From contig DAHXKG010000005.1 in the NCBI GenBank assembly GCA_027366525.1, forward strand, positions 66,575 to 130,574: 64,000 nt of DNA, given 5' to 3'. This document shows positions 6,610 through 9,663 of the stretch, piece after piece (the stretch's first letter is position 1; each line of letters opens with the position of its first letter). The notes under the pieces are model-generated. The model was given only the letters and a program-made list of their open reading frames with translations. It had not been told where the DNA came from and made no database searches. The position numbers were made by a program, and so were the translations under genes. The stretch is from a candidate division FCPU426 bacterium (GTDB lineage Bacteria; Oederibacteriota; Muellerivitia; Muellerivitales; DAHXKG01).

Positions 6610-6633
6610 ACTTTGTGAAATTTTTCACAAAGT
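6610..6633 (+). promoter_or_regulatory. Upstream palindromic operator (Rex-like or CRP/FNR-like)
   Basis: A 24-base dyad containing TTGTGAA-ATTT-TTCACAA at 6613-6630, symmetrical except for the central base pair. This is an exact fit to the TTGTGAA-N4-TTCACAA operator described for the NADH sensor Rex. It also fits TGTGA-N6-TCACA, the CRP/FNR-type site. It ends 3 bases upstream of the -35 box of the serine operon promoter. Its twin lies at 6670-6699. Confidence 0.8.
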
Positions 6634-6636
6634 TGC

Positions 6637-6666
6637 TTGACATCCGCCGGATAATCCGTGTATGGT
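6637..6666 (+). promoter_or_regulatory. Promoter of the aminotransferase-serA operon
   Basis: A consensus -35 TTGACA (6637-6642) and a weaker -10 TATGGT (6661-6666) with an 18-base spacer. The predicted start, about 6673-6676, falls inside the second palindrome. A protein bound at both dyads would therefore bracket RNA polymerase. Confidence 0.6.
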
Positions 6667-6669
6667 AAT

Positions 6670-6699
6670 CCTACTTTGTGAAAGATTTCACAAAGTAGG
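6670..6699 (+). promoter_or_regulatory. Downstream palindromic operator overlapping the transcription start
   Basis: A 30-base dyad containing TTGTGAA-AGAT-TTCACAA at 6676-6693 and flanked symmetrically by CCTACT and AGTAGG; only the central pair is asymmetric. The core arms are identical to those of the site at 6610-6633. The two centres are 63 bases apart, close to six helical turns, so a pair of bound dimers would lie on the same face of the DNA. The position at the predicted start suggests repression. Confidence 0.8.
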
Positions 6700-6749
6700 T
6701 GAGTCGGGAACAAAAATAAAACTATCATGGTTTAAAAAGGATGATTGAA

Positions 6750-7910
6750 ATGAAAAAGAAATATGTTATGGCGCCAGGGCCTACTCCCATTCCATCCGAG
6801 GTTTTGGCAGAAGCGGGACAACCGATTATTCACCATCGAACGCCACAATTCCAGGAAATTTTAAAAGCTTCTGAAATTGCTTTGCAAAAAATCTTTAGAA
6901 CCAATCATCCCGTGATTATTTTTCCATCGGTTGGAACAGGAGCGATGGAATCCGCTGTGGCGAATTTAACCTCGCCTGGAGAGACGGTCTTGGTCGCGTC
7001 AAGCGGCCATTTTGGAAATCGATGGAAGGAAATTTGTCAAGCGTTCCAAGTGCAAGTCGATCATTATGAAACCGAATGGGGAAAACCCATTGATAGTATG
7101 GAAGTTCAAAAACGACTCAAGGCTAATTCCAACATCCATTTGGTTTTTTCAACCTTTAGTGAAACGTCAACTGGAGTTCGGAATGATATTCAAGCGTTAG
7201 CCAAAGTGACGCAAGCCCAAAACGCCCTTCTGGTCGTGGATGCGATTTCAGGGTTGGGAGCCATGCCCTTGGAAACTGATTTATGGGGTGTGGATGTTGT
7301 AGTCGCCGGTTCTCAAAAAGGATTTATGATTCCTCCAGGGCTTTCGTTTGTGAGCGTTTCTCCAAAAGCATTAGAAAAATCCAAAAATTCTAAAAGTCCA
7401 AAATACTATTTTAGTTATGAAAAATCAGTCAAAAAATTAGTTGAGGGGAAATCACCGGACACACCATTTACTCCTGCAATTACCTTGGTGATCCAACTAA
7501 GAAAAGCTTTGGAATTGATTGAAAAAGAAGGCATTGAAAATGTTTGGAAACGACATGAGATTTTGGCCCGCATGACTCGAACCGCGGTCAAGGCACTCGG
7601 ATTACCTTTGCTGGCGCCCGATAGTCCGTCGGATGCTTTAACGGCAGTGTCGTGTCCCGAGGGGTTGGATGGAGGAGCAGTAAGCAAAATGTTTCGAGAT
7701 GATTATGGGATTTCAATTGCCGGTGGACAAGGCAAATTAACAGGGAAAATTTTCAGGATGGGTCATTTGGGATATATTGATAGCTCGGATGTGATATTAG
7801 GTATAGCAACACTTGAAATGGTCTTAAATCGTTTAGGAAAATCAGTGCCTTTAGGCGCTGGTGTGAAAACAGTTCAAGAGATTATTTTAAAAGAAAATAT
7901 TAAATTCTAA
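6750..7910 (+). CDS. Class V aminotransferase (serine-pyruvate / phosphoserine type)
   Basis: A 386-residue PLP enzyme of the alanine-glyoxylate/serine-pyruvate aminotransferase group. The opening YVMAPGPTPIPSEVL is typical of that group. The PLP-binding lysine is Lys190 in AGSQKGFMIPPG, with the phosphate-binding region at PSVGTGAMESAV and Asp164 in VVDAISGLGAMP. Its place 15 bases before serA suggests it makes phosphoserine from phosphohydroxypyruvate, taking the part of SerC, but this is inferred from context. I chose ATG 6750 because AAGGA lies 8 bases upstream; an ATG at 6741 overlaps that Shine-Dalgarno. Glyoxylate or serine-pyruvate transamination is the alternative role. Confidence 0.85.
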   Translation: MKKKYVMAPGPTPIPSEVLAEAGQPIIHHRTPQFQEILKASEIALQKIFRTNHPVIIFPSVGTGAMESAVANLTSPGETVLVASSGHFGNRWKEICQAFQVQVDHYETEWGKPIDSMEVQKRLKANSNIHLVFSTFSETSTGVRNDIQALAKVTQAQNALLVVDAISGLGAMPLETDLWGVDVVVAGSQKGFMIPPGLSFVSVSPKALEKSKNSKSPKYYFSYEKSVKKLVEGKSPDTPFTPAITLVIQLRKALELIEKEGIENVWKRHEILARMTRTAVKALGLPLLAPDSPSDALTAVSCPEGLDGGAVSKMFRDDYGISIAGGQGKLTGKIFRMGHLGYIDSSDVILGIATLEMVLNRLGKSVPLGAGVKTVQEIILKENIKF

Positions 7911-7925
7911 ATTTAGGATACAGTT

Positions 7926-9509
7926 ATGATCAAAATATTAGTCACGGATAAATTATCCGATCAGGGTATGCAGATTTTGAAAAATGAACCCACTTTTCAA
8001 GTTGATGAAAAATTAAAATTACCACCAGAAGAATTAAAAAAAATAGTCGGTGAATATGAAGCATGGATTATTCGAAGTGGAACCACGGTGACGACGGAAT
8101 TAATTCAAGCGGCGACCAAGCTTCGTATTATTGGAAGAGCTGGCGTAGGGGTCGATAACGTTGATTTGGCGACCGCTACCAAACAGGGGATTATCGTCAT
8201 GAATACCCCGGATGCCAATACCATTTCTACCGCCGAACATACGATTGCGATGTTAATGGCCATGGCGCGCCAGATTCCCCAGGCGAGCTTTTCATTGCGT
8301 GAAAAAAAATGGGAACGTAGTAAGTTCGTCGGCTGTGAGTTGCATGAAAAGATATTAGGCGTAATTGGATTAGGACGTATTGGAACCAATGTGGCCCGTC
8401 GGGCAATTGCTTTAGGTATGCGTGTGTTGGCTTTTGATCCCTATTTAGATCCAAGTAAACTGGAAGGTCATGAATTTCAATTATCCAATTTAGAAGAGAT
8501 CTTTCGAAAGTCCGATTTTATTACAGTACACACGCCACTGACTCCAGAAACCAAAGGACTGATTGGGAAAAAGCAAATTGAAATGATGAAAGATGGTGTC
8601 TTTCTGATCAACTGTGCCAGAGGCGGCATTATTGTTGAAAGTGACTTGTATGAGGCATTAAAGTCTAAAAAAGTTCAAGGGGTGGCGCTGGATGTTTTTG
8701 AAAAAGAACCTCCATTTGATAATCCCTTGTTGGGTCTAGATTCGGTGGTCGCGGTGCCCCATATTGGTGCAGCAACTCAAGAAGCGCAGTCGAATGTCGC
8801 ACTAGTGATTGCCGAACAAGTCAAAGAAGCCCTTAAAGGCGGTCGAGTGCGCAATGCGGTCAATATGCCTTCCTTGGATCCGAAAATGTTGGAAATGTTA
8901 ATGCCCTATTTAGTCTTGAGTGAAAAAATTGGTGCATTTCATTCTCAAGTTTCAGAATCCTATATGAAAAAAATTCATATTGAATATTTAGGTGAAATTA
9001 CGAATTACGATATCAAACCATTAACGTTATCATTAATTAAAGGCATTTTAGAAAGAGGTATGGGAGCTTCCGTGAATTATGTGAATGCTCTGGTTTTAGC
9101 CAAAGAACGTGGTTTTGAAATCTCGGAAACGATTAATAATCGAACCGGAGATTATTCATCATTAATTACGGTAACCATCACGAGTGAAAAAGAAAAACAT
9201 ATTATTGCCGGAACGGTTTTTGGAAAAAAAGAATACCGAATTATTAACCTCGATGGCAACAATACCGATTTTTCCCCCGAAGGCAACATGATCTGGATGG
9301 TGCATCAAGATCGACCGGGAATTGTTGGAAAACTGGGAACGATCCTTGGTTCGAACAACATTAATATTGCAGGGCTCTATGTTGGAAGACGAGAAGTTGG
9401 GGGCACGGCGGTTGCTATGATTAACGTAGATAATGAAGTCGAGGTCCAAGTTTTAAATGAGTTGAAAACTATTGCCGGTATTCAAAAATTAAAATTTGTA
9501 AAATTTTAA
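7926..9509 (+). CDS. serA: D-3-phosphoglycerate dehydrogenase
   Basis: A 527-residue long-form SerA, the NAD-linked first enzyme of serine synthesis. The substrate domain contains GRAGVGVDNVD. The NAD-binding fold has GVIGLGRIGTNVARRA (about 145-160), the catalytic region NCARGGIIVESDL, and the active-site histidine in VPHIGAATQEA. An intervening ASB domain precedes a C-terminal ACT domain (from about residue 455, VHQDRPGIVGKLGTILG), which in the family binds L-serine for feedback inhibition. It is the second gene of the operon controlled by the paired palindromes. No serB is seen nearby. Confidence 0.95.
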   Translation: MIKILVTDKLSDQGMQILKNEPTFQVDEKLKLPPEELKKIVGEYEAWIIRSGTTVTTELIQAATKLRIIGRAGVGVDNVDLATATKQGIIVMNTPDANTISTAEHTIAMLMAMARQIPQASFSLREKKWERSKFVGCELHEKILGVIGLGRIGTNVARRAIALGMRVLAFDPYLDPSKLEGHEFQLSNLEEIFRKSDFITVHTPLTPETKGLIGKKQIEMMKDGVFLINCARGGIIVESDLYEALKSKKVQGVALDVFEKEPPFDNPLLGLDSVVAVPHIGAATQEAQSNVALVIAEQVKEALKGGRVRNAVNMPSLDPKMLEMLMPYLVLSEKIGAFHSQVSESYMKKIHIEYLGEITNYDIKPLTLSLIKGILERGMGASVNYVNALVLAKERGFEISETINNRTGDYSSLITVTITSEKEKHIIAGTVFGKKEYRIINLDGNNTDFSPEGNMIWMVHQDRPGIVGKLGTILGSNNINIAGLYVGRREVGGTAVAMINVDNEVEVQVLNELKTIAGIQKLKFVKF

Positions 9510-9663
9510 TTTTATAGAATTAAGCCATGCAAAATTAATATGTGGAATTCGATTTCTCGATAAGCAAGAGGCGAATGGTTCTTGTGGAGATTTCCAGTGA
9601 TTCCATATGGTTGAGCGGGGTCATGGTTTTTAAAAAATGAAGACAACGCTCTAAAAACTCCTC

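Follow-up and report, generated by a model that had tools for sequence, protein, structure and literature searches.

Which protein would read two inverted repeats with shared core arms that stand on either side of a serine operon promoter, and why should that protein govern serine synthesis? We addressed this question in the window (the whole 64-kb stretch of DNA that was analysed), in the genome to which it belongs, and in related genomes. Judged by these comparisons, the two switches are very probably binding sites of Rex. We put at roughly nine in ten the probability that they are operators of this NADH/NAD+-sensing repressor, with repression relieved by NADH.

Two dyads around the serine operon promoter

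The promoter is of the sigma-70 type, with a -35 hexamer TTGACA (6637-6642, plus strand) and a -10 hexamer TATGGT (6661-6666, plus strand) separated by an 18-bp spacer. The upstream predicted Rex operator (6610-6633) is a 24-bp perfect palindrome with arms of 11 bases, the centre TT and the core TTGTGAAATTTTTCACAA (6613-6630), and it stops 3 bases before the -35 hexamer. The downstream predicted Rex operator (6670-6699) is a 30-bp perfect palindrome with arms of 14 bases, the centre GA and the core TTGTGAAAGATTTCACAA (6676-6693). Among the perfect inverted repeats with a short spacer found in the window, none is longer, and, given the position of the -10 hexamer and the length of the promoter spacer, this palindrome covers the predicted transcription start. 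The two TTGTGAA-N4-TTCACAA dyads are 63 bp apart from centre to centre. This is the layout given in the preliminary description, which had two dyads with the same core arms bracketing the promoter, and both cores proved to be perfect: compared with the Rex consensus TTGTGAANNNNTTCACAA, each showed 0 mismatches over all 14 fixed bases.

The first gene of the operon (6741-7910, plus strand) encodes a class-V aminotransferase of the serine/phosphoserine/alanine-glyoxylate type (PF00266, E = 3e-32). An in-frame ATG at 6750 agrees with the start in relatives, in which the orthologue of this gene also lies downstream of a dyad. The second gene, serA (7926-9509, plus strand), encodes D-3-phosphoglycerate dehydrogenase with intervening and ACT domains (TIGR01327, 675 bits, cut-off 454). 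An AT-rich perfect inverted repeat, AAAATTAAAATTTGTAAAATTTTAATTTT, lies across the end of serA (9485-9513) and is possibly part of a terminator.

Under a first-order Markov model, perfect cores are expected by chance 0.0014 times per 64 kb and 0.044 times per 2.02-Mb genome; two were found within 63 bp of each other. When up to 3 mismatches were allowed, the window yielded 11 matches against 9.5 expected, which is the chance level. Therefore, only near-perfect sites were counted.

Rex and its predicted sites in the genome and the phylum

The genome (2.02 Mb, 97.5% complete) encodes one Rex and two CRP-family proteins, so that the absence of Rex, named in the preliminary description as grounds for abandoning its proposal, does not apply. 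The Rex protein (226 aa, contig C1) is encoded away from the serine operon and contains the winged-helix and Rossmann domains of this family (PF06971 and PF02629). It scored 256 bits against the NCBIfam Rex equivalog (cut-off 217), and its best relatives of solved structure are all Rex proteins (E = 6e-42). It carries the DNA-binding motif QVRKDLAYLG...RGIGY and the nucleotide-binding motif GxGNLG. Two tandem CRP-family genes (L018 706-1407 and 1483-2280; contig C11, 77-79 kb) lie beside a succinyl-CoA synthetase-like gene.

A search of the genome for exact WTGTGAA-N4-TTCACAW gave four occurrences, all of them in intergenic DNA and arranged in two pairs, one at the serine operon and the other upstream of nuoA. 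The second pair (L166 5637-5654 and 5719-5736; contig C11, 163636-163735) has a spacing of 82 bp and is flanked by a moeB/thiF-like gene on one side and by nuoA on the other. With up to 2 mismatches allowed, 21 matches were seen against about 28 expected, showing no excess over chance, and nearly all of the weak matches that were checked were intragenic. Two matches were treated as chance: an intragenic one on contig C22, and a 2-mismatch one in the intergenic DNA that precedes an alcohol-dehydrogenase-like gene (L010). Strong sites are thus confined to two promoter regions, and the random placement that would have spoken against the earlier proposal was not found. The same count makes it hardly credible that the dyads are chance occurrences or members of a dispersed repeat (MITE, REP): nothing beyond the repeat itself speaks for such an origin, and the four strong copies, where 0.044 perfect ones are expected, all belong to two promoter regions whose conservation extends across genera. 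No dyad was detected at up to 3 mismatches in the 300 bp around rex in this genome, a point against Rex as the regulator. Autoregulation of rex is common, though not universal, and does not define Rex operators.

Conservation within the order was assessed in this genome and six further genomes, the latter searched with the motif at up to 1 mismatch. In all seven, the serine operon carries a dyad and the nuo operon is preceded by a pair with a spacing of 82-83 bp, the nuo genes being identified by Pfam (nuoA) in G002 and as visible Nuo frames in the others. The dyad kept in 7/7 genomes at the serine operon is the downstream one, which in the relatives stands just after a TTGAC(A/T)-16-TATACT promoter. 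The -35 hexamer is TTGACA or TTGACT in 6/6 relatives, the -10 hexamer is TATACT, and the spacer is 16 bp. The upstream dyad is present in three of the seven, at centre-to-centre distances of 61, 62 and 63 bp, and its position is kept in G001 and G002. G004 and G005 also have perfect Rex-type dyads in their ATP-synthase gene clusters (L160 2835-2852 and L159 2630-2647). In G002, G003 and G006, a 1-mismatch dyad precedes the gene for a protein beginning MDQGASS by 140-240 bp (L163 2886, L164 3067 and L165 744). This arrangement was not found in the window's genome, and the protein gave no match in Pfam, NCBIfam, the PDB or its own genome.

The relatives retain a dyad core of 18-22 bp and lack the 14-bp arms, which bears on a further explanation, namely that the downstream dyad works at the RNA level, as a 5′-terminal hairpin that controls transcript stability or translation. 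Its sequence (6670-6699) does fold at -20.1 kcal/mol (z = -3.2). However, the same sequence is also found in front of the -35 box and of nuo, outside the transcripts that start at these promoters, and the long arms are missing in the relatives. A hairpin function is therefore highly improbable; if the downstream operator is transcribed, the hairpin may be a side effect of the operator.

Beyond the order, families f8, f11, f13, f14 and f15 have serine-operon dyads near (T/A)(T/A)GTGAA-N4-TTCAC(A/T)A, often two of them, 85-88 bp apart. In f8, f11 and f13, a further copy of this dyad class precedes an NADH-linked operon with NuoE/HoxE-type and NuoF-type genes. The serine-operon dyad was found in 19/20 genomes with a canonical Rex and in 0/18 with none or only a divergent Rex, these being related genomes and hence not phylogenetically independent. 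Counted by family, it is present in 7/8 with canonical Rex and 0/6 without (Fisher's exact test: p = 0.005), canonical and divergent forms being called by eye from the recognition-wing motif, with the divergent proteins read in part. Where read, the wing of the divergent Rex is GNKKGGY or GKPKVGY instead of GRRGFGY. Four families (f3, f5, f7 and f9) have neither Rex nor dyad; in f4 and f12, the sole Rex found is a divergent paralogue (L202, L203, L147 and L198-L201) and there is no dyad. In f16, a dyad appears only at 4 mismatches, and named relatives, at most 47% identical, gave no convincing dyad.

These distributions decide between Rex and the CRP/FNR family, which the preliminary description had offered as the alternative regulator: one of the two proteins with cNMP-binding and HTH_Crp_2 domains would bind TGTGA-N6-TCACA. 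Such proteins are encoded in the genome, and the dyads contain this sequence in register, so that they share their core pentamers with E. coli CRP-type operators; co-occurrence and target genes, in contrast, fit Rex. Four genomes with dyads (G019, G028, G031 and G042) have no HTH_Crp_2 match, G019 combining a perfect dyad with 98% completeness, whereas G009 and G035 encode CRP-family proteins but have neither Rex nor dyad. Since dyads occur without a CRP/FNR helix-turn-helix, and genomes that lack Rex and have CRP lack dyads, control by CRP/FNR is very unlikely. The other targets of the dyads are NADH-linked complexes and not catabolic genes. Furthermore, the inner bases flanking TGTGA and TCACA are invariant or nearly so across the 24 sites of the order, as in the Rex consensus. 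Finally, the recognition helices of the CRP-family proteins (TVETC/VIR), read by eye, are without the Arg that makes the CRP contact at this place in E. coli. The Rex gene, the pair at nuoA and the conservation across genomes thus favour the earlier reading of the serine operon dyads as probable Rex operators.

Predicted control by Rex

From the features read in the sequences (the sites, the Rex gene, the second target, the conservation and the co-occurrence with Rex), we infer binding, repression and a response to NADH. Bound to the downstream dyad, a Rex dimer would cover the start site and block RNA polymerase. The dyad sits where a bound dimer would have this effect, so that occlusion offers the simplest account of repression. 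Where the upstream dyad is present, it may serve as an auxiliary site at which a second dimer, bound next to the -35 box, strengthens repression. If this Rex behaves like those already characterised (PMC6391272, PMC5355995), NADH would release it when NADH/NAD+ rises, and the aminotransferase-serA and nuo operons would be derepressed together.

One would not intuitively expect high NADH to induce an enzyme that itself produces NADH, and this counts against Rex; the same point was raised for Clostridium thermocellum (PMC8457756). A plausible rationale is that high NADH would oppose 3-phosphoglycerate dehydrogenase, so that more enzyme might keep up the flux to serine while complex I reoxidises NADH. 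Why NADH should induce an NADH-producing step is a testable question that this locus raises.

Of the two dyads at nuo, the proximal one reaches into the -35 region, and 82-83 bp separate it from the distal one upstream. The spacings of the pairs correspond to about six helical turns at serA, about eight at nuo, and 8.1-8.4 in the sister families (85-88 bp). Values near six and eight turns are compatible with cooperation between dimers. The preliminary description had two dimers facing the same side and looping. As a necessary mechanism we reject looping: four of the seven genomes of the order have the downstream dyad alone, and the sister families have their own spacing. Looping is not required at serA, because the upstream dyad is optional there and the downstream one is always kept. 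We regard it as rather unlikely that the near-fixed spacings (61-63 bp at serA, 82-83 bp at nuo) make a cooperative or looped, sharp redox switch in which serine synthesis and complex I form almost the whole Rex regulon.

Relation to known Rex systems

Redox control of serine synthesis by Rex, described earlier as an unusual circuit, is less exceptional than that term implies. In Caldicellulosiruptor bescii, Rex binds and represses an operon of the same content, class V aminotransferase and 3-phosphoglycerate dehydrogenase (Athe_2126), with a Rex site upstream: binding was shown by EMSA and is NADH-sensitive, and deletion of rex derepresses the operon by 0.57-0.63 log2 (PMC6391272). The serC-serA site is conserved in all Caldicellulosiruptor (PMC8579813). 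The C. bescii operon has one tested site, 88 bp from the ATG (Table 2, PMC6391272), whereas here two perfect dyads flank the promoter; the other targets are hydrogenases and POR in C. bescii and complex I here, and the lineages differ. In C. thermocellum, too, a 3-phosphoglycerate dehydrogenase gene is among the listed Rex targets (PMC8457756). In Thermotogales, likewise, a serine-pathway enzyme, serine-pyruvate aminotransferase, is predicted to be under Rex control in five genomes (Ravcheev et al. 2012, as quoted in PMC6391272). A search of the 500 bp around named Thermotogota orthologues, with up to 3 mismatches allowed, gave no dyad of the TTGTGAA type.

The Rex regulon of Streptomyces avermitilis, established experimentally for the complex I operon, comprises nuoA1-N1, atpIBEFHAGDC, cydABCD and rex (PMC5355995). 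It shares with the present system the consensus TTGTGAANNNNTTCACAA, and Rex represses its nuo and atp operons. It differs in that no serine operon is reported and rex is autoregulated, whereas no site was found at rex here.

Because the link between Rex and serine was already shown in other bacteria, our results widen a known circuit and do not reveal a new one. They would extend this link, from Caldicellulosiruptor and by prediction Thermotogales, to a further bacterial phylum in which it is strongly conserved, suggesting that the serine operon is a recurrent Rex target rather than a lineage quirk. The predicted regulon is very small, pairing serine synthesis with complex I or, in the sister families, with the NuoE/HoxE-type operon. 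This size, the paired perfect operators and the deep conservation at the level of the phylum are distinctive of the system described here.
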